This document shows, piece by piece, positions 6,761 to 17,315 of a stretch of 64,000 nucleotides of DNA. Under the pieces are notes generated by a model. The model did no database searches. It was given only the letters and a program-made list of their open reading frames with translations, and was not told the DNA's origin. The stretch spans positions 124,001 through 188,000 of the forward strand of contig JAFGUG010000023.1 of NCBI GenBank assembly GCA_016938655.1. Reading direction: 5' to 3'. The DNA comes from Thiotrichales bacterium (GTDB lineage Bacteria; Pseudomonadota; Gammaproteobacteria; Thiomicrospirales; Thiomicrospiraceae). The position numbers and the translations under genes are program-made. Position 1 is the first letter of the stretch. Each line of letters begins with the position of its first letter.

Positions 6761-7636
6761 CTAACCAAACTTCACCGCTTTAAAGAAACGCGACTGCGCT
6801 AAGGCTAATTGTTCACTGCTGTTTCCCACAATGGCAACTAACCCCCCTTTTACCGGAACCAACTCACCCGTATAGCCACTTTTATTGAACGCAACCATCG
6901 CTTCAATCTGATGCCCAGGCATAACAATAATGGTCACCGGCCCACTCTCACTTTGCATCACAATATGCAGGCCTCGCTGACCTTCCACGTCACACTCGCC
7001 GGCATAACTCATCGAATCAATCGGCTGCTGCATGGTTGCACCGACTTTGGCGAACAGCTTAGTTAACTCTTTATCAGAAAGCGCCAAGTCTTGGGGCTTC
7101 ATCAAATCAGGGTCATGCTCAACATGTTCTAAAATGTGCGCCACCATCGCCTCACCGCTTAAGGCTTTATGGCTGTGTCCAGGGTTTTGCCACAAACCAA
7201 AAAACATCACCGCCACCAAAAAACTGGCCGCCATGCCACCTAATGCATAGTGCCAAGAGTGCCAACCTTGATCGGTTTTTTCTGACAGGCCTTTATCCCC
7301 CCTTGCGGGCTGTGCTGATTTTTTCGATTTGGTTATTTGAGTCGTTGTATCAAAAGACGGTTCAACTTGTTCAACGTATTGTTCTTGTTGTTCGTGTTGT
7401 TCGTTCTGGACGTACGCTTCTTCAGACGACTCTTGATAACTCTGTTTCAGCAATATCCGTTCAATCAAGCCTTCTGGTGCTTCTACTTTTAGAGCGCCTG
7501 CAATTTTACTGTCCAAATCACGTGCTTTTTTTAGACTTTTTTGTTGCTCAGGGTTCGCTTTTAAATAGGCCAACATTGGCTCATCTAGCGTGTGCGGATC
7601 TTGCAACAGTCTGTTGTGAAATTCCAGTTCGTTCAT
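6761..7636 (-). CDS. Anti-sigma factor (DUF3379-like)
   Basis: 291 residues. The N-terminal cytoplasmic part (1-130) begins NELEFHNRLLQDPHTLDE and contains a Gln/Glu-rich stretch. One membrane span lies at about residues 128-150 (YALGGMAASFLVAVMFFGLW), followed by a periplasmic C-terminal domain. The start is one base after the stop codon of the ECF sigma gene, the usual arrangement for a sigma factor and its membrane-bound inhibitor. The DUF3379 assignment is from memory of the N-terminal pattern. Its inducing signal cannot be read from the sequence. Confidence 0.8.
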   Translation of the reverse strand: MNELEFHNRLLQDPHTLDEPMLAYLKANPEQQKSLKKARDLDSKIAGALKVEAPEGLIERILLKQSYQESSEEAYVQNEQHEQQEQYVEQVEPSFDTTTQITKSKKSAQPARGDKGLSEKTDQGWHSWHYALGGMAASFLVAVMFFGLWQNPGHSHKALSGEAMVAHILEHVEHDPDLMKPQDLALSDKELTKLFAKVGATMQQPIDSMSYAGECDVEGQRGLHIVMQSESGPVTIIVMPGHQIEAMVAFNKSGYTGELVPVKGGLVAIVGNSSEQLALAQSRFFKAVKFG

Positions 7637-7637
7637 C

Positions 7638-8201
7638 TTAAGGATTCCCCATCGCTTTTTTGCTGTCAGCGTTTGTGTCGCCGACGTAAATTTCTTTTAA
7701 CTGTTTGCGTGCCCGAAACAGGCGCGTATTGACCGTGGACAGTTTTAAATCAAGCTCTGCGGCAATTTCATCGCCAGTAAACCCCCACATAATTTGCAAT
7801 ACCAACGGTTCACGATACTCTTCGGGCAGACTTAAAATCGCGTTGTGCAGCTGTTGTTGCTCCAAATCCATGGAGGGCTCATGGCGCAATTCATCCGAGG
7901 CTAAATTGTCTTCTATCTCAATTAACAAAGGTTGATACTTCTCGTACATTCGGGCATTTTCACGACGTAAAATGGTAATTAACCACGACTTTGCGGCTTT
8001 TTCATCATTGAGTTTATCAATCGCTTTCCACGCTCGAGTAAAGGTTTCTTGAACCAAATCTTCAGCTACGGTCGGTTGTTTACACAGCCAATAGGCATAC
8101 CGATACAGATCCTTGGCGTAAGCCGAGACCAGCTGTTCAAAAAATCGGTGTCTGTTTTTCATGCCTATGGCCGACCCACTGTTTAAGTTACGTTCACTCA
8201 T
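7638..8201 (-). CDS. ECF-family RNA polymerase sigma factor
   Basis: 187 residues with sigma region 2 (RYAYWLCKQPTVAEDLVQETFTRAWKAIDKL) and region 4 (LPEEYREPLVLQIMWGFTGDEIAAELDLKLSTVNTRLFRARKQLKE), without regions 1 and 3, as in extracytoplasmic-function sigma factors. It lies directly upstream of its probable anti-sigma gene. Only 67 bases separate it from the heme-transport ATPase gene on the same strand, so it may be partly co-transcribed with that operon. No clear autoregulated promoter could be identified. Confidence 0.93.
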   Translation of the reverse strand: MSERNLNSGSAIGMKNRHRFFEQLVSAYAKDLYRYAYWLCKQPTVAEDLVQETFTRAWKAIDKLNDEKAAKSWLITILRRENARMYEKYQPLLIEIEDNLASDELRHEPSMDLEQQQLHNAILSLPEEYREPLVLQIMWGFTGDEIAAELDLKLSTVNTRLFRARKQLKEIYVGDTNADSKKAMGNP

Positions 8202-8268
8202 AAGACCGTGTTACCTACATTATCTTTCAATAATTTTTCAATTAAATTGTCAGCCAGTCTAACAACCA

Positions 8269-9099
8269 TTACTCAGACTTGATGGACGGCAGTGGCTTGA
8301 GTAGCACCACCGATTGATTCACTTCCGGTTGGAACACCACCTGCACCGCAATATCTAATACTTCGGTTAGGTTCTGTGCGGTCATAACGGTTTGAATTGC
8401 GCCTTGTTTAACCAACTTACCGGCTTTTAACAAGGTGCAAGTATCGGCTAATTGCATCACCTGATTTAAATCGTGCGAGACCATCACCACGCCCAAGCCT
8501 TTGTCGGCCAACTGCCGAAACAGACAACCAATGTGCACTTGGTGTTTTAGATCAAGCGCTTCAGACCACTCATCCAAAAACAGCCACTTACCCGCAAACG
8601 CATCCTCAGCCTCAAATTCCACTGGCCAAATTTGCGCCAACACCCGTGCTAATTGCGCCCGTTTTTGTTCACCACCCGACAGCGTCAAGACATCACGATG
8701 CCTTAAATGCGGTATGTCGGTTGCTTCCAATACGGCGTTTAATAATCTGTGTTTAATCTCTTTAGGCCAAGTGGTTTGTTGCGCTTCAAACCCCAAATTA
8801 ACAAGCTGTTCAACACTAAAGGCAAACGCAACTTCTTGCTGTTGAGAGAGCACAGCACGCTGTAACGCCAACTCGGCAAAACTGAGGGCGTTGAGTTTTT
8901 GTTGATTAAACAGAATTTCCCCCGCTGTGGCCTGCCACTCTTTGGTTAAGCAACGTAATAGCGTCGATTTACCGGCACCGTTTTGACCAATAATGGCGTG
9001 AATTTGCCCCGCGGCAAACTGACCTGTTAAATCGTCAAGTAAGCAGGCCTGCTCAATTTTAAAACCAAGGTTTTTAAAGGTAATCGACGAGTGACTCAT
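8269..9099 (-). CDS. hmuV: Heme-type ABC transporter ATP-binding protein (HmuV-like)
   Basis: 276 residues with Walker A GQNGAGKSTLL, signature LSGGEQKRAQLARVL and the insertion with IWP before Walker B that is typical of HmuV. The Walker B region reads WLFLDEWSEALDLKHQ: the family norm is DEPTSALD, so Pro-Thr are replaced by Trp-Ser. The Asp, Glu and D-loop Asp are kept. Its start overlaps the permease stop by four bases (ATGA), showing translational coupling. A BtuD- or FecE-like role remains possible. The gene contains one exact repeat palindrome at 9042-9053, which encodes Glu-Gln-Ala-Cys. Confidence 0.82.
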   Translation of the reverse strand: MSHSSITFKNLGFKIEQACLLDDLTGQFAAGQIHAIIGQNGAGKSTLLRCLTKEWQATAGEILFNQQKLNALSFAELALQRAVLSQQQEVAFAFSVEQLVNLGFEAQQTTWPKEIKHRLLNAVLEATDIPHLRHRDVLTLSGGEQKRAQLARVLAQIWPVEFEAEDAFAGKWLFLDEWSEALDLKHQVHIGCLFRQLADKGLGVVMVSHDLNQVMQLADTCTLLKAGKLVKQGAIQTVMTAQNLTEVLDIAVQVVFQPEVNQSVVLLKPLPSIKSE

Positions 9100-10079
9100 G
9101 CATTAAACCCGCGGCGTTTGAGTAACATCATCAAAAAGAACGGCCCGCCCAGCAGGGCCATTAACAAACCAATCGGCAGTTCCGCTGGGTGCAACAAGCT
9201 TCGAGCAAGCAAATCCGCCAACACCAATAAAGTCGCGCCACCCAACGCACTTAACGGAATAACCATTTTATGATCCGGGCCAACCCACAAACGCACCATG
9301 TGTGGCACCACCAAACCCACAAAACCAATTACGCCCACCAACGCTACCGCAACGGCCACCATCAGCGCACTTAAGCCCATAACCCACCACTTTAACGACT
9401 GCACCGCATAGCCCATGTGTAAGCAGGCCTGCTCACCCAACAAAAAAGCGTTCAATGGCTTAATCAAGCGCCACAAGCCAATTAAAGATATCAGCATTAC
9501 TGTTGCGACAAGCCCCACGGCTTGCCAGGTAATATTCGCAAACGAGCCCATCATCCAAAACACCACAGAACGCAGTTCGGTATCGCTGGAGATGGTAATC
9601 AATAACCCAGTCAGTGCGCCAGCAATCGCGTTAATCGCTACCCCCGCTAACAACATTAACGCCACATCAGTTTTGCCTCGGCGGGTGGCGATCAAGTACA
9701 GAAACACCGTCATGGGCATAGCGAACACAAAGGCGGCGGCGCTCATCTGCCAAGCGCTCACCTGCCCCCAAAGTGTGCCGCCCAACACAATCACCAGCAC
9801 CGCACCCAAGGCCGCACTGCTGGACACACCAATTAACCCGGGCTCGGCTAACGGATTACGAAACAATGCTTGCAGTGCCACGCCCGCCACCGCCAAACCA
9901 GCGCCGACCAGTGCGGTCATGAGCACTCGCGGCAAACGCAACTCCCATAACACCAAACTCTGCTGAGCGGTTAGGCCTGTCCAAAGCTGGCTGAGTTGAA
10001 TGTGCACACTGCCGGCTTGCAAACTGACGAACATCGCCATTAGCAACATAATCGTTAATAACAAAACACGACAGATCAA
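9096..10079 (-). CDS. hmuU: FecCD-family ABC transporter permease (HmuU-like)
   Basis: 327 residues, strongly hydrophobic, about nine to ten membrane spans, with the FecCD hallmarks LRLPRVLMTALVGAGLAVAGVALQALFRNPLAEPGLIGVSS (start of that stretch) and IGFVGLVVPHMVRLWVGPDHK. It forms the membrane channel for heme, cobalamin or ferric siderophore import with the ATPase encoded after it. It overlaps the flanking genes by four bases on both sides. No periplasmic binding protein or TonB-dependent receptor gene is present nearby. One exact palindrome copy lies at 9422-9433. Confidence 0.87.
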   Translation of the reverse strand: MICRVLLLTIMLLMAMFVSLQAGSVHIQLSQLWTGLTAQQSLVLWELRLPRVLMTALVGAGLAVAGVALQALFRNPLAEPGLIGVSSSAALGAVLVIVLGGTLWGQVSAWQMSAAAFVFAMPMTVFLYLIATRRGKTDVALMLLAGVAINAIAGALTGLLITISSDTELRSVVFWMMGSFANITWQAVGLVATVMLISLIGLWRLIKPLNAFLLGEQACLHMGYAVQSLKWWVMGLSALMVAVAVALVGVIGFVGLVVPHMVRLWVGPDHKMVIPLSALGGATLLVLADLLARSLLHPAELPIGLLMALLGGPFFLMMLLKRRGFNA

Positions 10080-11074
10080 AGCGCGTTCTCGGCTTTTAAG
10101 GCTTGATTCAAATTCGTTTGTGCGGTTGGTGTATTGGTTTTATCAGTGGTTGTATCAGCGTTGTTATCAGATTTATTCTCTGAGTTTTTAAAATCCGCAG
10201 GCCTGCTCGAATCTGGATAGTATTTTTGATTTAACACATACACCACCACCGCATTCCAAATGACTATAAACCACATCACATACAACCACAGCAGAAACAA
10301 CGGAATGGCGGCAAAGGCACCATAAATAACGTTATAGGTTGGAAACCACTCAACGTACAGCGCAAAACCGTCTTTTAATAATTCAATTTGAATGGTTGCC
10401 AACAAGCCACCAATTAAGGCCGCTTTAAACGCCACCTTTTGTGCCGGCACAAACTTATACAACAACGCAAAACCCATCAGCGCAAACACAAACGGTAACA
10501 AGCTAATGCCAAAGGTCAACTTCTCAAGAAACGGGTAGGCCTCGGATAACAACGGCACGGCAAGCAAGTACGAACTGGTTAATAAACTTAACCCCAGTAA
10601 CAATGGCCCGCCAATACTCACCCCCAAATAGTGCAACAAACTTACCCACCATTTACGTCTGCGTGCGTGCGGCCAAAGACCATTAATTTTGCTGTCGATT
10701 TTCCATAGCAACATAATCGTGGTAAACAACATCACCAACAGACCAGGCCCTTTTAAGGCGGCCGCTTGTTGCGAAAAACCCAATATATACGACTCGATTA
10801 CCGGCTGTGAAGACGGCATTAAGTTGTGCACCACTTGATCCATCACCAACAACTCAAAGTCATCAAAATACGGCGACACCGAGAACAAACTCAACATCAC
10901 CGCAATCATCGGTACAATCCCAAGAAGGGTGGTGTAGGCTAAAATCCCGACCGCATCGGTACCTTGGCGTTGCATAAAACGCACGGTCACACGCTTCCAA
11001 AACATCCAGTGCCAAATGGGGTGCTCTAAAAAGGTTGGGAAATCATTGGCTTCACTTGCGGTGGGTTTGCTCAT
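10076..11074 (-). CDS. YihY/virulence factor BrkB family inner-membrane protein
   Basis: 332 residues with about six membrane spans and the family features FMQRQGTDAVGILAYTTLLGIVPMIAV near the N-terminus and YNVIYGAFAAIPLFLLWLYVMWFIVIWNAVVVY near the C-terminus, followed by a hydrophilic Asn/Thr-rich tail. Older annotation as ribonuclease BN is wrong for this family. Its function is not known with certainty. It heads an operon with the heme-type permease and ATPase through four-base overlaps, an unusual partnership. Confidence 0.88.
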   Translation of the reverse strand: MSKPTASEANDFPTFLEHPIWHWMFWKRVTVRFMQRQGTDAVGILAYTTLLGIVPMIAVMLSLFSVSPYFDDFELLVMDQVVHNLMPSSQPVIESYILGFSQQAAALKGPGLLVMLFTTIMLLWKIDSKINGLWPHARRRKWWVSLLHYLGVSIGGPLLLGLSLLTSSYLLAVPLLSEAYPFLEKLTFGISLLPFVFALMGFALLYKFVPAQKVAFKAALIGGLLATIQIELLKDGFALYVEWFPTYNVIYGAFAAIPLFLLWLYVMWFIVIWNAVVVYVLNQKYYPDSSRPADFKNSENKSDNNADTTTDKTNTPTAQTNLNQALKAENAL

Positions 11075-11201: not shown

Positions 11202-14200
11202 ATGACAATAAAACAATGGCAATTCTGGATTGATCGCGGCGGCACTTTTACCGATATTGTGGCACTGGATCCTCACGGCAAAGTGCACACCCACAAACTG
11301 CTCTCCGAGAACCCCGAACAGTATCCAGATGCGGCCATTTCGGGGATTCGTTATTTTTTAGAGTGTCCGGAACCGCAAGCCATTCCAGTCGAGCAAATCC
11401 ACTCGGTTAAAATGGGCACGACCGTTGCCACCAACGCCTTGTTAGAGCGCAAAGGGCAACCGGTCGCGCTCATCACCAACAACGGGTTTAAAGATGCCTT
11501 AGAGATTGGTTACCAAAACCGCCCTGATATTTTTGCCCTGCACGTCACCACACCAAAACCACTTTATAAAACCAGCCTAGAAATTAAAGGTCGTTTGGAT
11601 GCGCAAGGTAAAGAGATTGATGCCTTAGACCTCGATGAAATTAAACAAAAACTCTCAAACCTAAAGCAACAAGACTTTGAAGCAATTGCGGTTGTCTTAC
11701 TGCACGCTTATCTCAACCCCAAACACGAACAAACGGTTGCCGACTTAGCCAAACAGATGGGGTTCAAACAGGTTTCCACATCGTCCAATACCAGTGCGCT
11801 CATTAAATACATCTCTCGCGGTCGAACCACGGTGGTCGATGCTTATTTAAGCCCTATTTTGCGCGCTTATGTGGAACAGGTTGCCAATAAGTTACCGAAT
11901 GTCGATTTGCAATTTATGCAGTCGCACGGTGGTTTAACGGCTGCAGAGAACTTTCAAGGCAAAGACGCCATTCTCTCTGGCCCCGCTGGTGGCATTGTCG
12001 GTGCAGTTAAAACTGCAGAGCAAGCCGGTTTTAACAAGATTATCGGCTTTGATATGGGCGGCACCTCAACGGATGTATCGCACTACGCAGGGGAATATGA
12101 GCGCAGTTTTGAAACTGAAGTGGCGGGTGTGCAAATGCGTGTCCCCATGCTGGATATTCACACCGTTGCGGCGGGCGGCGGCTCGATGATTAAAACCTTG
12201 CACGGTGAACTGCAAGTGGGTCCCGAATCCGCCGGCGCCAACCCTGGTCCGGCGAGTTATCGACGTGGCGGGCCTTTAACCGTCACCGACTGCAATGTGT
12301 TATTGGGGCGTATACAACCGGAATTTTTCCCTAGCGTGTTTGGCGCACAGGCCAATCAACCACTGGATATTCAAGCGGTAAAAACGCAATTTAAAGCCCT
12401 AGCCAATGAACTCAATCTTCCCTCCGAACAAATCGCCGAAGGTGCCTTAAAAATTGCGGTTGAAAATATGGCGAATGCGGTGCAAAAAATCTCCACCCAA
12501 AAAGGCTATGACCTGCGTGATTACACCTTAGTGAGCTTTGGTGGCGCGGGCGGTCAACACGCCTGTGCGGTCGCCGAAAAACTGGGCATGCAAAAAGTAT
12601 TACTGCATCCTTATTCGGGCGTGTTATCCGCTTATGGCATGGGTTTAGCGCATAAAAGCCAGATTGAAACCCAATCGTATGGTGTGGAACTCAAACGGTT
12701 ATCCAGCCTTAAAACCCACATTCAGGCTCAAATTGAGCAGGCCTGCTTACTTTTAGAACAACAAAACGAAACGGTATTTGAAAGCAAAACCACCCTGCAT
12801 CTGCACTATCGCGGCAGTGATACATTATTAGATATTGTGCTACCAGACCTTACTAACGCGACGTTAGAAACCGTTGAAAAACTAGCGTTACAGTTCAATC
12901 AACTGCATCGCCAACAGTTTGGGTTTGTACAGCCGAATGTGCCGATTATGATTAACAGCATCAGTGTCGAGGCGGCCTCAAAAAGTCACGAGGTTCACCC
13001 CAGCCCGATTCAAACCCAAACCTTTGCCAACAGCCTAAAACACGTCCCGCTGTTTGCCAATGGCATTTGGCAAGACGCAGAAGTTTTTCAGCGTGACGAC
13101 TTACACCCCGAACAAACGATTACTGGCCCTGCCCTGATTTTAGAATCCACAGGTACCTTGGTAATTGAACCGAACTGGTCGGCGCAACTGCAAACCGATG
13201 GTCAACTGTTGCTCAAATACGTCGAGCAACCTACCATCGAAAAAACAACGCAAAATCAGCAGGCCTGTCTAGTTGCATCAAAGAGTGAACTCAACCATCC
13301 AGACCCGATTCAATTGGCGTTGTTTAATAATCGGTTTATGTCCATTGCTGAGCAAATGGGGGCAACCTTAGCCAAAACCTCACACTCGGTGAACATTAAA
13401 GAGCGTCTGGATTTCTCGTGCGCCCTATTTGATCAACACGGTCAATTGATTGCCAATGCGCCGCACGTGCCGGTGCATTTAGGCTCAATGGGCGAGTCGG
13501 TGAAAACCGTGATTGCCAAAGTTGGCTCGACTCTTCAAGACGGCGATGCCTATGTATTAAATAACCCTTTCGCGGGCGGCACACACCTGCCGGATATCAC
13601 GCTGATTTCGCCGGTGTTTGTTGATAAGCAGTTAGCCTTTTACGTTGCCTCGCGGGGTCATCATGCGGATGTGGGTGGTTTAACACCGGGTTCCATGCCA
13701 GCTAACAGTCAGCACATTGAGGAAGAGGGCGTGTTATTAGACTGCGTGCAACTGGTCAAACAAGGCGTGTTTCAAACACAAGCCATCTCCGAGCATTTTC
13801 AGCAGGCCTGCTATCCGGTACGAAATCTAAGCCAAAACCTCAACGACTTGCACGCGCAGGTCGCCGCCAACCAACAAGGGATTCAAGGCTTGCAACGGTT
13901 GTGTGCCCAATCGGGTGTGGACACCGTTAACGCCTATATGAACCATGCACTCAATCATGCCGAACAAGCCGTCATTGAGTTATTGCCGAATTTGAAACAG
14001 GGGCAGTTTTGCTACCCAACCGACCAAGGTAGTCAAGTCTGCGTGGCGATTTCGGTCGATGCCCAAAAACAACAAGCCACCATCGACTTTACCGGCACCT
14101 CAGCCCAACAGGCTAATAACTTTAATGCCCCGCACGCGATCACTCGCGCGGCCACGCTTTATGTATTGCGTACCTTAATCAATCAACCGATTCCGCTTAA

Positions 14201-14846
14201 CGATGGGTTTTTACGCCCCATTAAACTGATTGTACCCAAAGGCTGCATGCTCAACCCCGCTTACCCCGCAGCGGTAGTGGCCGGAAATGTCGAAACCTCA
14301 CAAGTGGTCACCGATGCGCTGTATGGCGCTTTGGAAATTCAAGCTGCTTCACAAGGCACGATGAACAATCTAACGTTTGGTGATGACACTTGGCAGTATT
14401 ATGAAACACTATGCGGTGGCACGGGCGCAGGTAACGGCTATGATGGCCACGATGCCGTGCACAGCCACATGACCAACTCACGCCTAACCGACCCCGAAAT
14501 TTTAGAGTTGCGTTACCCAGTGCGTTTAAGTCGATTTGCGATTCGTGAAGACAGTGGTGGCTCTGGAAAATTCCGCGGTGGTAATGGCTGTGAACGTCAC
14601 TTTACCTTTTTAAAACCGATGACCGTTTCAATATTAAGTAACCACCGAATCTTGCCGCCCTATGGAATGGCAGGCGGAGAAGCTGGCACGGTGGGCAAAC
14701 ACTTTGTGATGCGTGCCGAACAATCGACAACAGAGGGGTTTACAGACGCTACATCACTCAATAGCACCGTCACGCTTGAACTGAACGCGGGTGATACCTT
14801 TGCAATTCACACGCCCGGTGGTGGTGGATATGGCGCAATTGAATAA
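11202..14846 (+). CDS. 5-oxoprolinase / hydantoinase, fused HyuA-HyuB
   Basis: 1214 residues. The N-terminal half (about 1-680) is hydantoinase A/oxoprolinase: IDRGGTFTDIVA, GTTVATNALLERKG, IGFDMGGTSTDVS, FGGAGGQHA. The C-terminal half (about 700-1214) is hydantoinase B: CALFDQHGQLIANAPHVPVHLGSM, GGTHLPDITLISP, RGHHADVGG, CGGTGAGNGYDGHDAVHSHMTNSR and the Gly-rich end TPGGGGYG. The fused order and length match ATP-dependent 5-oxoprolinase, which opens 5-oxoproline to glutamate. A related hydantoin or acetone-type substrate is less likely. It is monocistronic. It carries exact palindromes at 12736 and 13801 and a near copy at 13258, in the QAC reading frame. Confidence 0.92.
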   Translation: MTIKQWQFWIDRGGTFTDIVALDPHGKVHTHKLLSENPEQYPDAAISGIRYFLECPEPQAIPVEQIHSVKMGTTVATNALLERKGQPVALITNNGFKDALEIGYQNRPDIFALHVTTPKPLYKTSLEIKGRLDAQGKEIDALDLDEIKQKLSNLKQQDFEAIAVVLLHAYLNPKHEQTVADLAKQMGFKQVSTSSNTSALIKYISRGRTTVVDAYLSPILRAYVEQVANKLPNVDLQFMQSHGGLTAAENFQGKDAILSGPAGGIVGAVKTAEQAGFNKIIGFDMGGTSTDVSHYAGEYERSFETEVAGVQMRVPMLDIHTVAAGGGSMIKTLHGELQVGPESAGANPGPASYRRGGPLTVTDCNVLLGRIQPEFFPSVFGAQANQPLDIQAVKTQFKALANELNLPSEQIAEGALKIAVENMANAVQKISTQKGYDLRDYTLVSFGGAGGQHACAVAEKLGMQKVLLHPYSGVLSAYGMGLAHKSQIETQSYGVELKRLSSLKTHIQAQIEQACLLLEQQNETVFESKTTLHLHYRGSDTLLDIVLPDLTNATLETVEKLALQFNQLHRQQFGFVQPNVPIMINSISVEAASKSHEVHPSPIQTQTFANSLKHVPLFANGIWQDAEVFQRDDLHPEQTITGPALILESTGTLVIEPNWSAQLQTDGQLLLKYVEQPTIEKTTQNQQACLVASKSELNHPDPIQLALFNNRFMSIAEQMGATLAKTSHSVNIKERLDFSCALFDQHGQLIANAPHVPVHLGSMGESVKTVIAKVGSTLQDGDAYVLNNPFAGGTHLPDITLISPVFVDKQLAFYVASRGHHADVGGLTPGSMPANSQHIEEEGVLLDCVQLVKQGVFQTQAISEHFQQACYPVRNLSQNLNDLHAQVAANQQGIQGLQRLCAQSGVDTVNAYMNHALNHAEQAVIELLPNLKQGQFCYPTDQGSQVCVAISVDAQKQQATIDFTGTSAQQANNFNAPHAITRAATLYVLRTLINQPIPLNDGFLRPIKLIVPKGCMLNPAYPAAVVAGNVETSQVVTDALYGALEIQAASQGTMNNLTFGDDTWQYYETLCGGTGAGNGYDGHDAVHSHMTNSRLTDPEILELRYPVRLSRFAIREDSGGSGKFRGGNGCERHFTFLKPMTVSILSNHRILPPYGMAGGEAGTVGKHFVMRAEQSTTEGFTDATSLNSTVTLELNAGDTFAIHTPGGGGYGAIE

Positions 14847-15009: not shown

Positions 15010-15858
15010 TTAAGCCGCTTTAAGCGGTCGAATCAAATACAGGTCAAGTAACTGCTGCAAACTCTGCAAGGCAAACGCTTCCAGTTCTTGAGCGTCATAA
15101 CCTAAGTCAGCGGTCAACTCGTGCAATGCCTCAGCTGCGGTTTGTTGGGTTTCTGCGCCCTCTTCAATCGCCAATAGCCACTGAAACAATAGCGGTGTAA
15201 GCTCCATAAAGCCAACCGAATCATCGGGGTTTCGGTAAACCATCAATGTGGTAATTGCGCCGTTTTCATTCCCAGGTTCGGTGGGTTGATTGTCCACCGA
15301 CAACAGATGCACCGGCCACTGGTAGGCCAATGGCCAAGCCACCGGAGAGAGTTCGTAAATGGCATCTAACGCATCGGCAGTGATGGGTTGAGTAGCGGCG
15401 ACCGGTTCGCCGGTTTCAGAAAAGGCAAAGCCCTCTTCTGGGCTGACCGCCACGGCCAACTCCATCCATTCGTAGTGTGCCAGTTCCAATAAAAATTCGG
15501 GGTCGGTTTCCAGCGGTTCATACTCTTCATTGAGAAAAATAATAAACTCTTCCCCCATCTCATGAAACAACGGCGTGCGTGCGTGATGCTTGATTAGGTA
15601 TTCACGAATCAAATCTGTCCAGCGTGCTTCGCCTAAAATCTGTTTGCAAACGGGAAACAAATTGCTAAAAAAACCGTTAACATTATTAAAAAATAACTCT
15701 TTATAAGCGTTCAATCGGCGAGGCTCAATGCTCGCTTCTTGTTCAGGTGCATACGGGATTTGCGGGTTACGAATGTGTTGTGCAAACTGCATTTGCAGTT
15801 GCTGGAAATAGGGTAAATCGCCTTGCTCTGAAACCGAGCTTTTTTCATTAGAGGACAT
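15010..15858 (-). CDS. bufC: DUF2063 protein, bufferin synthesis partner (BufC-like)
   Basis: 282 residues. The N-terminal ~100 residues (YFQQLQMQFAQHIRNP, RLNAYKELFFNNVNGFFSNLFPVCKQILGEARW, REYLIKHHARTPLFHEMGEEFIIFL) are the DUF2063 putative DNA-binding-type domain. The rest is an acidic alpha-helical region. In bufferin and related systems this protein delivers the precursor peptide to the DUF692 enzyme. I chose the ATG at 15858 because GGAGG lies seven bases before it. A longer frame from 15888 has no better ribosome site and would overlap bufB by 41 bases. With this start the overlap is 11 bases, so the two genes are translationally coupled. Confidence 0.88.
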   Translation of the reverse strand: MSSNEKSSVSEQGDLPYFQQLQMQFAQHIRNPQIPYAPEQEASIEPRRLNAYKELFFNNVNGFFSNLFPVCKQILGEARWTDLIREYLIKHHARTPLFHEMGEEFIIFLNEEYEPLETDPEFLLELAHYEWMELAVAVSPEEGFAFSETGEPVAATQPITADALDAIYELSPVAWPLAYQWPVHLLSVDNQPTEPGNENGAITTLMVYRNPDDSVGFMELTPLLFQWLLAIEEGAETQQTAAEALHELTADLGYDAQELEAFALQSLQQLLDLYLIRPLKAA

Positions 15859-16690
15859 GATTGTGCCTCCACTGATTTTGGTAGTCACGAATCTTTTGCA
15901 CTTCTTGCATCATTTCGTCCATCGGCGGAATATTAAAATCGCGCTCTAACAGGGTGGGAATCAAACCGTGTTGTTGATAGGTTTTTTCCAATAACTGCCA
16001 GACTTCTTGTTTCACATCTTGACCGTGGGTATCAATTTTTAGATCGTCGGCTTCGTCAAAATGCCCGGCCATGTGCAAATAGACAATCCGTTCAGTGGGC
16101 ATCGACTGTAAATAGTCTTCCGCAGAGTATTGATGATTCACCGAATTGACATAGGTGTTATTGACATCAAACAACAGGTCGCAATCGGCCTCTTCAAGCA
16201 CCGCATTAATAAAGTCCGCTTCGCTCATCTCTGTACTCGGCATCGCGTAAAACGAGACGTTCTCAATGCCAATTTTACGCTCTAAAATATCCTGTACTCG
16301 GCGAATCCGCCCAGCCACATAATGCACCGCCTCTTCGGTAAACGGAATCGGCATTAGGTCATACAAATGGCCACTGTCACCACAATAACTAAGGTGTTCG
16401 GTGTAGGCACGAATATCATGAAAATCAAAAAAAGTTTTGAGTTGGCGAATGTAGGCTTCATCCAGCGGATGCGGGCCACCTAAATCCAGTGACAAACCGT
16501 GACACAAAAACGGCAGGCGTTCGGTTAAGGTGCGCAGCTGTCGCCCCTGACGACCACCAAAGTTAAGCCAGTTCTCGGGCGCGATTTCCATAAAGTCGAT
16601 GGGCAAATCGGGACGGGCCAAGACTTCATCAAAAAAGTCCCGTCTTAACCCTAAGCCTACCCCTTCAACGGGAAACTGTCGTGTTGTCAT
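15848..16690 (-). CDS. bufB: DUF692 multinuclear iron oxidase (BufB-like, MNIO family)
   Basis: 280 residues of the DUF692/MbnB TIM-barrel family: VGLGLRRDFFDEVL, DFMEIAPENW, CHGLSLDLGG, YTEHLSYCGD, IENVSFYA, CDLLFDVNNTYVN, YLHMAGH, DTHGQDV and LERDFN. The His, Glu, Asp and Asn in these motifs are the expected iron ligands. The family converts Cys of a precursor peptide to copper-binding heterocycles (oxazolone-thioamide in methanobactin, thiooxazole in bufferins). It sits between a Cys-repeat precursor gene and a DUF2063 gene, the canonical bufferin order. The product chemistry is inferred from the family. Confidence 0.93.
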   Translation of the reverse strand: MTTRQFPVEGVGLGLRRDFFDEVLARPDLPIDFMEIAPENWLNFGGRQGRQLRTLTERLPFLCHGLSLDLGGPHPLDEAYIRQLKTFFDFHDIRAYTEHLSYCGDSGHLYDLMPIPFTEEAVHYVAGRIRRVQDILERKIGIENVSFYAMPSTEMSEADFINAVLEEADCDLLFDVNNTYVNSVNHQYSAEDYLQSMPTERIVYLHMAGHFDEADDLKIDTHGQDVKQEVWQLLEKTYQQHGLIPTLLERDFNIPPMDEMMQEVQKIRDYQNQWRHNHVL

Positions 16691-16705
16691 ATTGCCTCCA
16701 AATTA

Positions 16706-16717
16706 AGCAGGCCTGCT
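16706..16717. repeat. Exact palindrome copy just upstream of bufB
   Basis: AGCAGGCCTGCT lies 16 bases upstream of the bufB start, inside the bufA-bufB spacer. It could fold over the bufB leader, but it belongs to the window-wide repeat family. Confidence 0.7.
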
Positions 16718-16763
16718 AAAATTGCTTAAGCGTCAATTACCTTTACATAACTGACGGCGATAA

Positions 16764-16801
16764 AAACAAAAAACCACTGATGAAAGGCAGTGGTTTTTTT
16801 G
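16764..16801 (-). terminator. Attenuator-type terminator between bufA and bufB
   Basis: AAACCACTG (16771-16779) pairs with CAGTGGTTT (16788-16796), with A/T runs on both sides, so it can terminate on either strand. On the minus strand it lies directly after bufA and before bufB with no other visible promoter. It therefore probably makes bufA mRNA far more abundant than bufBC. Confidence 0.75.
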
Positions 16802-16827
16802 TATGTGACTCAAAGTGGGCTTAGTAA

Positions 16828-17190
16828 TTAACTATTCGCACCGCATTTGCCTTCACCACACTTACCTTCCATTTTTTTGTCGCCGCCACATTTGCCTTCG
16901 TGCATTTTATTGCCGCCGCATTTCCCCTCACCACACTTACCTTCCCCGCACTTGCCTTCCATTTTTTTATCGCCGCCGCATTTGCCTTCGCCGCACTTAC
17001 CTTCCATTTTTTTGTCACCACCGCACTTACCTTCACCACATTTACCTTCCATGTGATTGGATGCCACTTGGCTATAACCGCCCTGCATCTCTTTAATGGC
17101 AAAAGGATTTTGTGAAGCGGATGCTACGCCGGTAACGGAAACCATTGCTGCGCCAGCTAGCTTTAAAAAATCGCGTCTTGATTGTTTCAT
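16828..17190 (-). CDS. bufA: Bufferin-type Cys-repeat precursor peptide with Tat-like leader (BufA-like)
   Basis: 120 residues. It begins MKQSRRDFLK, an exact twin-arginine (Tat) box, then a hydrophobic stretch and a likely signal peptidase site after VASA (about residue 25). Residues 48-118 consist of ten EGKCG units. The ten Cys (51, 56, 66, 71, 81, 86, 91, 101, 111, 116) are the only Cys in the protein and all lie on one five-residue register. GGAGAG precedes the ATG. It is followed by a DUF692 enzyme and a DUF2063 protein, so it is read as a ribosomally made, post-translationally modified copper-binding peptide. Most described precursors of this type carry a Sec-type leader. The Tat motif is the odd point. 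Confidence 0.88.
   Translation of the reverse strand: MKQSRRDFLKLAGAAMVSVTGVASASQNPFAIKEMQGGYSQVASNHMEGKCGEGKCGGDKKMEGKCGEGKCGGDKKMEGKCGEGKCGEGKCGGNKMHEGKCGGDKKMEGKCGEGKCGANS
16837..17049 (-). repeat. Tandem repeats encoding EGKCG units
   Basis: A basic 15-residue unit (EGKCGEGKCGGDKKM, 45 bases) is repeated with expansions and deletions of one EGKCG block, giving ten Cys codons. This is coding repeat DNA prone to slippage, and block number probably varies between strains. Confidence 0.85.
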
Positions 17191-17315
17191 GATATCTCTC
17201 CAGTGTTTTTATATGAGGTTTAAGTAACCTTGCAAACTATAAGACCAACAACTCGTGATTTTATTTCAAATAAAGCATAAAAGATTAAAATTTGATCAAA
17301 CAACAAATGATTTCG

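Follow-up and report, generated by a model that had tools for sequence, protein, structure and literature searches.

How does a copper-peptide precursor leave the cytoplasm when it begins with a twin-arginine box, while its best-studied relatives are assigned to the general secretory (Sec) pathway? The question is raised by a three-gene operon, hvfABC, in a 64,000-nucleotide stretch of DNA (the window) from a Thiotrichales bacterium of the Thiomicrospiraceae, a relative of Thiomicrorhabdus (assembly GCA_016938655.1, contig JAFGUG010000023.1, positions 124,001 to 188,000; coordinates below are those of the window). The operon encodes the precursor of a ribosomally synthesized and post-translationally modified peptide (RiPP), an MNIO (DUF692) maturase and a DUF2063 partner, and represents a clade-wide variant of a known RiPP family with a leader of the twin-arginine translocation (Tat) type. 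Our reading, to which we give a probability of about 0.8, is that this is an oxazolin-type (Hvf) copper-peptide system in which the usual Sec signal of the precursor has been exchanged for a Tat signal, with modification in the cytoplasm, export by Tat and buffering of Cu(I) in the periplasm. The family, the leader and its conservation across the clade, TatC, a shared promoter and a heavy-metal-efflux neighbourhood can all be read from sequence.

Identity of the operon

All three genes lie on the minus strand. The hvfA gene (16828..17190) encodes a 120-residue precursor that starts MKQSRRDFLKLAGAAMVSVTGVASASQNPF and belongs to the HvfA family by model NF050137 (73.2 bits; cut-off 19.5); it scores below the cut-off of the stricter HvfA equivalog NF050188 (61.1 bits; cut-off 95). 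At E 0.05, NF050137 matches 27 of the 31 Tat-type precursors described below, and NF050188, with its cut-off ignored, matches 23 of these 31 and 71 of 72 Sec-type precursors. The 280-residue MNIO maturase (hvfB, 15848..16690) reaches 433.5 bits with the HvfB model NF003818 (cut-off 360) and is close to PDB 3bww (E 5e-72). Its residues H64, E98, H99, E143, D175, N177, H206, H210, D220, H222 and E249 are the conserved H/D/E/N positions of the family, kept in at least 98% of 167 HvfB rows, and it is the only match to a Pfam MNIO search of its own genome (95.7% complete). The partner (hvfC, 15010..15858) combines PF09836 (DUF2063) and NGO1945_C, with an RRE-type part, and scores 235.4 bits with the HvfC model NF050145 (cut-off 142); its 282 residues are counted from an inner ATG, the listed open reading frame starting at a GTG at 15888 and giving 292 residues. 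The precursor gene is followed by those for HvfB and HvfC, as is characteristic of the HvfA/EGKCG oxazolin family.

A bufferin (Buf1/Buf2) identity was rejected. The maturase scores 433 bits as HvfB and 267 as BufB (BufB cut-off 310), and curated-model and Pfam scans of the precursor gave no match to DUF2282 or a Buf2 precursor family at E 1. By these models the system is of the oxazolin/EGKCG (Hvf) kind and not a bufferin proper. The operon and its Tat box exceed chance. A preliminary description of the locus had correctly placed a 120-residue precursor with an SRRDFLK box before a DUF692 enzyme and a DUF2063 partner, and had called the operon bufferin-type, a label that the curated models replace by HvfA/oxazolin (EGKCG). 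Its interpretation as a MNIO/DUF2063 RiPP operon with a conserved Tat-type leader, set apart from Sec-led relatives, stands; besides the bufferin label, its five-residue cysteine register was not upheld for the family, and its suggestion that the peptide may cross already folded or loaded with copper stays a conjecture, the unmodified chain being predicted to be disordered.

A twin-arginine leader confined to one clade

The Tat box, SRRDFLK, occupies residues 4–10 of HvfA (17161..17181, minus strand) and is recognized by the NCBIfam Tat model TIGR01409 (20.7 bits; cut-off 16.7). Relatives were searched with a model of the repeat core only, in which the leader is ignored; it matched in 35 of 95 relatives, 103 of 370 genomes of the class, 49 of 397 genomes of the phylum and 27 of 62 genomes of the order. 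Core-model matches and HvfB loci together gave a set that covers 66 of the 103 matching class genomes and contains 163 distinct HvfA-type precursors, 31 with RRxFL (Tat-type) and 132 without it and Sec-like (Sec-type). Since sorting was by this motif, the twin arginine in 31 of 31 is given by construction; the codons, the hydrophobic (h) region and the TIGR01409 scan are independent of it.

These independent features agree. TIGR01409 matches all 31 Tat-type precursors and none of the 72 Sec-type precursors tested (of 132). Several different Arg codons are used at both Arg sites, F and L never vary, and the motif is preceded by S, T or N and followed by K in 29 of 31. The h-region is less hydrophobic in the Tat-type set (1.57 vs 2.00 in the Sec-type; p 2e-12). 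A search for an in-frame RR upstream of the 132 Sec-type precursors yielded two doubtful cases, both 5' of the likelier start. The window precursor itself has the S/TRRxFLK box and TIGR01409 score of a Tat substrate and belongs to the set with the weaker h-region; it lacks the Sec signal described for oxazolin, a trait that lies outside the NF050137 model. TatC is encoded in 60 of the 62 genomes of the order, including its own.

The 31 Tat-type precursors are confined to one family and to four of its genera (g1, g3, g4 and g6 in our numbering), among them Thiomicrorhabdus, Hydrogenovibrio and Thiomicrospira, and the 132 Sec-type precursors are spread over 53 families, this family included, and further named loci. 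In an HvfB tree (quick LG+G4, SH-aLRT support only, midpoint rooting), all 28 Tat rows fall within one clade of 31 rows (SH-aLRT 99); of the other three rows, two have no adjacent precursor and one is Sec-type (L032 of genome G044, weakly placed). Two changes suffice to explain the Tat and Sec labels on this tree. We conclude from these comparisons that the Tat-type leader is a trait of a clade within one sulfur-oxidising family, and the Tat leader claimed in the preliminary description extends to the clade as a whole. The possibility raised there that most homologues were already described with Tat leaders did not materialize: 132 of the 163 are Sec-like, and no such description was found in the open-access literature searched.

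Leader type and the maturase

In the family, 27 genomes have an HvfA-type match, and hvfB accompanies the Tat-type leader in 21 of 21 and the Sec-type leader in one of six, that of G044 (Fisher 7e-5, ignoring kinship; a contig-cut MNIO match below cut-off in G002 was scored as absent). The equivalent neighbourhood in G002, G013 and G031 encodes a Cys-rich peptide of the Sec type, and hvfBC is absent between this peptide and the next conserved gene. This pattern fits a Tat-form leader that is kept together with the maturase, and is the same whether the leader is needed for export or for recognition.

Four loci (L298, L299, L300 and L301, in G013, G031, G012 and G024), in genomes with no HvfB-model match, encode Sec-type AAKCG-like peptides no more than about 1.2 kb from a different ECF (extracytoplasmic function) sigma gene. 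These peptides appear to be orphan precursors, and L300 also has a DoxX-like gene (by eye).

A promoter-like motif shared with an ECF sigma gene

A motif scan found an ECF-type promoter-like site, TGAAA-N17-GGTCT, upstream of hvfABC (17242..17268, minus strand). The same motif lies upstream of an ECF sigma factor gene (motif 8203..8229, gene 7638..8162, both minus strand) about 8 kb from hvfA. The sigma factor matches NF009170 (243 bits over 197) and contains Sigma70_r2 and r4; its reading frame extends to 8201, and the ATG at 8162 was chosen as the likelier start. The gene behind it (6761..7636, minus strand) encodes a DUF3379 protein (PF11859, 132.6 bits) that, from this position, is probably the anti-sigma factor. 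No paper on DUF3379 together with a sigma factor was found in the open-access literature searched.

Two matches in the window are unremarkable by themselves (on average 0.8 would be expected, and 19 of 100 shuffles give at least two). Across the family, the motif (last base T or A) occurs at 22 of the 31 Tat-type hvfA loci, always with a spacer of 17 (shuffled fraction 0.0026), and at 23 of the 28 sigma orthologs, with a spacer of 17 in 21 of these and of 18 in two (shuffled fraction 0.0007). The sigma ortholog is found in 23 of 31 hvfB genomes (Fisher 8e-6), on the same contig in 21 and 4.1–8.2 kb from hvfB. The sigma gene and its putative target hvfA share a promoter motif, as members of an ECF-sigma regulon would. 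A sigma-70 promoter scan of the region gave one site and none on the hvf strand. A spacer-18 form of the motif was noted at 12 of the 132 Sec-type loci (e.g. L221, L224, L226, L228, L229, L233, L234 and L244), and the sigma link may for this reason predate the Tat leader.

Gene order was compared in 20 hand-chosen neighbourhoods, 16 of them selected for having hvfB and the sigma gene on one contig. The order hvfABC, BrkB/YihY, sigma, DUF3379 is found in 16 of these 16, with the ABC and FecCD genes in 12. In the window, the ABC ATPase, FecCD permease and BrkB/YihY genes (8269..11074, minus strand; assigned by family matches and synteny) lie between the sigma and hvf genes. A 1214-residue protein, 5-oxoprolinase-like by eye, is encoded on the plus strand between hvfC and the YihY gene (11202-14846), and a similar gene is likewise placed at L285, L286, L294, L295 and L296 (the L296 contig ends before hvf).

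A candidate wider regulon and metal efflux

A pattern drawn from the motif sites has five matches in the own genome and none in a reversed control; two of the five are present by construction, because the pattern was drawn from those loci. Three of the matches precede hvfA, the sigma gene and a CuHis-rich gene of no family, and the remaining two fall within or abut other open reading frames. The CuHis-rich gene is followed by CusB-like, CusA/CzcA and TolC-type genes (the last by eye), with the CusA/CzcA model and, for the CusB-like protein, an RND adaptor model above cut-off.

Across the genus, 32 genomes gave 130 matches in all: 101 (vs 39 in the reversed control) in the 21 that have a sigma ortholog and 29 (vs 23) in the 11 that lack it (Fisher p 0.04). 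Twenty further sites were picked by eye for resemblance; seven precede MsrP, two HvfX and two a DUF4395 protein (the site being 235 nt away in one case), and nine precede nothing telling. Searches confirmed the family for four MsrP, two HvfX and one DUF4395. In four of the eight hvfB genomes without a sigma ortholog (G033, G034, G040 and G047), CusA/CzcA-type efflux genes stand directly 5' of the hvf genes. These promoter sites outline a candidate metal-stress regulon, in which the ECF/DUF3379 pair would be tied to heavy-metal efflux, MsrP and Hvf peptides. A CusB-like adaptor beside a Tat-type hvfABC (L314:8243-9547, minus strand) carries the sequence SRRQFLR close to its N-terminus and appears to be Tat-led as well.

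Precursor architecture

Between the signal peptide and the core lies a segment NPF..KxM..GYxQVA (17062..17109, minus strand) that, by alignments and profile comparison, is common in outline to Tat-type and Sec-type precursors. The core (16840..17049, minus strand) contains ten cysteines, at positions 51, 56, 66, 71, 81, 86, 91, 101, 111 and 116, every one within an EGKCG unit.

The strict five-residue register proposed earlier for these cysteines is true of the window allele and is not conserved in the family. When only precursors with four or more CG are counted, every gap is a multiple of five in one of 30 Tat-type precursors, the window precursor itself, and in 20 of 129 Sec-type precursors. 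Gaps other than five are multiples of five in 28 of 125 cases in the Tat set and 109 of 465 in the Sec set, where about 20% is expected. The register was rejected as a structural signal on these counts, and we regard it as a consequence of building from units of 5 and 10 residues, because the window allele alone among the 30 Tat-type precursors has it.

Two further elements of the operon were considered. A 12-pair hairpin with a T-run between hvfA and hvfB (16768..16799, minus strand) is a weak candidate for an attenuator; the region has four terminator-like sites vs 3.0 (sd 1.8) expected. A dyad, AGGTTACTTAAACCT, near the start of hvfA was dropped, being present at the window locus only among the 31 Tat-type loci.

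HvfB loci outside the precursor set

Thirty-six HvfB loci yielded no precursor by script. Seven are at contig ends (L037, L057, L058, L100, L201, L205 and L218); four (L034, L161, L240 and L241) are Sec-type by eye and served as tree labels only; L073 was left unclassified; and L133 and L137 have no adjacent precursor, with a Tat-type precursor elsewhere in their genomes. A rhodanese-like gene lies before hvfB at three loci and the gene of an exported protein of about 250 residues at 14, and the remainder have no usable precursor. These 14 loci (L150, L152, L163, L164, L165, L167, L175, L177, L180, L181, L184, L185, L187 and L190), mostly of Methylophaga or Piscirickettsiaceae, have no EGKCG precursor, and the exported protein (TQIMVRAKAVDAK...) is encoded just 5' of hvfB. 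It contains 'CGCP' in one case and could be a different HvfB substrate.

Proposed mechanism

In the mechanism that we propose, the nearby ECF sigma/DUF3379 pair would turn on hvfABC through the shared promoter. In the cytoplasm, HvfB and HvfC would then turn the cysteines of the EGKCG units into thiooxazoles that bind Cu(I), as expected from their family membership; cytoplasmic modification by HvfBC is established for relatives. The leader would direct the modified peptide to the Tat translocase, a signal peptidase would free it in the periplasm, and the peptide would serve there as a Cu(I) buffer alongside Cus-type efflux and the repair enzyme MsrP. We infer the modification, its precedence over export, the binding of copper and the inducing signal.

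Several observations weigh against this reading. The window precursor does not reach the cut-off of the Pfam TAT_signal model (18.6 bits; cut-off 22.7), and G044 has the Hvf genes with a Sec-type leader. Tat is reported to carry long unfolded chains poorly, with an efficiency that falls as the unfolded part grows (PMC13186574), and the unmodified precursor is predicted to be disordered by AlphaFold2 (pLDDT 49, pTM 0.15). The strict promoter motif is missing at nine of the 31 Tat-type loci and present at 15 of the 132 Sec-type loci, the 12 with spacer 18 included. The only match of a tighter pattern in the own genome was that at hvfA, and two of the five looser matches are, as noted, built in. 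CusB models score below their own cut-offs, and metal specificity is presumed.

Alternative explanations

The explanations that follow concern why the leader is of the Tat type, and the first two are subsidiary to the claim of Tat export. The one that survives best, with a chance not far short of even, is that the leader serves timing, or fit with a post-translational route, rather than folding: export through Tat would delay exit until HvfBC has modified the peptide, and a small hydrophilic chain would cross unfolded. Premature export by Sec has been stated as a problem for such peptides (PMC12452194), and the predicted disorder of the precursor agrees with an unfolded passage; on the other side, the Sec-type relatives evidently have another solution, and the falling efficiency of Tat with unfolded length applies here as well.

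We rate lower, as a doubtful proposition, that a copper-loaded, compacted peptide needs Tat, as proposed for Csp1-type proteins and CopA, the Sec channel being unable to pass such cargo. Tat-targeted copper storage proteins exist and their pre-loading has been discussed (PMC12510493), and CopA is said to exit by Tat partly folded and probably loaded with copper (PMC10304878). The association of the Tat leader with hvfBC in the family and the Sec-type leaders of the three syntenic loci without hvfBC point the same way, while the 132 Sec-like leaders among Hvf-type precursors and the predicted disorder of the unmodified chain argue against it. An extended form, which we regard as rather improbable, holds that the RiPP, fully modified, folds around Cu(I) before it leaves the cytoplasm through Tat as a finished metallo-peptide, that leader and maturase changed together once in the ancestor of the clade, and that a sigma-controlled copper regulon governs the system. 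If it were true, the syntenic loci without hvfBC and with Sec-type leaders would be a natural control.

It is unlikely that the leader is kept chiefly for recognition by HvfBC, its Tat form being a by-product of drift at the interface. The HvfA leader of Haemophilus influenzae is reported to help recognition by HvfBC, which prefers full-length HvfA (PMC13419390), and the leader is non-Tat at the three syntenic loci without hvfBC. Sec-type relatives are nevertheless recognized without RRxFLK, and the invariant R, R, F and L match the Tat consensus. Least probable of all is export via Sec, with a signal peptide whose twin arginine is accidental or which is promiscuous: such promiscuity is known and the Pfam score is low, yet RRxFL is kept in 31 distinct precursors of four genera with conserved flanks, a TIGR01409 match in every one and a weaker h-region.

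Comparison with known systems

The closest known system is oxazolin/HvfABC of H. influenzae, with fontiphorin and bulbicupramide, which shares the EGKCG repeats, the HvfB-type MNIO and the HvfC-type partner; the HvfA-type relatives compared here share the NPF..GY segment and the gene order A-B-C. Unlike oxazolin/HvfABC, the window operon has no HvfX gene inside, and its clade is Tat-type throughout, whereas published descriptions of bufferins and oxazolin give them Sec signals (PMC12452194, PMC13419390), in agreement with the earlier statement that described precursors are generally Sec-led. The survey in PMC12452194 gathered candidates with a predicted Sec signal or none, and neither 'twin-arginine' nor 'Tat' occurs in its main text. 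In the parts covered, the papers on fontiphorin (PMC12668002) and bulbicupramide (PMC12538549) do not mention Tat and do not settle the export route. No report of a Tat-led MNIO precursor was found in the open-access literature among the matches listed, the only co-mention of 'twin-arginine' and 'MNIO' being an unrelated moss mitochondrial genome.

Csp1-type copper storage proteins differ in being folded four-helix bundles, for which no homology and no modification enzyme is known. Their likeness lies in being Tat-targeted, Cys-rich and Cu(I)-binding (PMC12510493). DAG-RiPPs, which are MNIO-modified lipoproteins, likewise pair an MNIO substrate with a non-standard export signal, but follow the signal peptidase II/lipoprotein route and have a ChrH-like modification (PMC12636315).

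The candidate regulon of the window resembles, by our analysis, that of sigmaF in Caulobacter, with a similar gene set and another promoter. There, an ECF sigma factor with its own promoter motif controls bufferin-type MNIO and DUF2063 operons (DUF2282-DUF692-DUF2063, one with a DoxX gene) and partly the YedY (MsrP) gene (PMC3511200). The differences are a DUF2282 precursor, the promoter GTAACC-N16-CGAA, DUF1109 in place of DUF3379 as the negative regulator, and the Sec signals of bufferins (PMC12452194).

How a cell keeps a RiPP precursor with a signal peptide from leaving before its modification has been posed as an open question in the field (PMC12452194). A Tat-type clade with the same kind of enzymes is a natural swap in which the export route, its timing or copper loading could be tested, and its leader would be a second natural leader for the Hvf maturase. 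The promoter link of the ECF/DUF3379 pair to heavy-metal efflux, MsrP and Hvf peptides would parallel the sigmaF system of Caulobacter.

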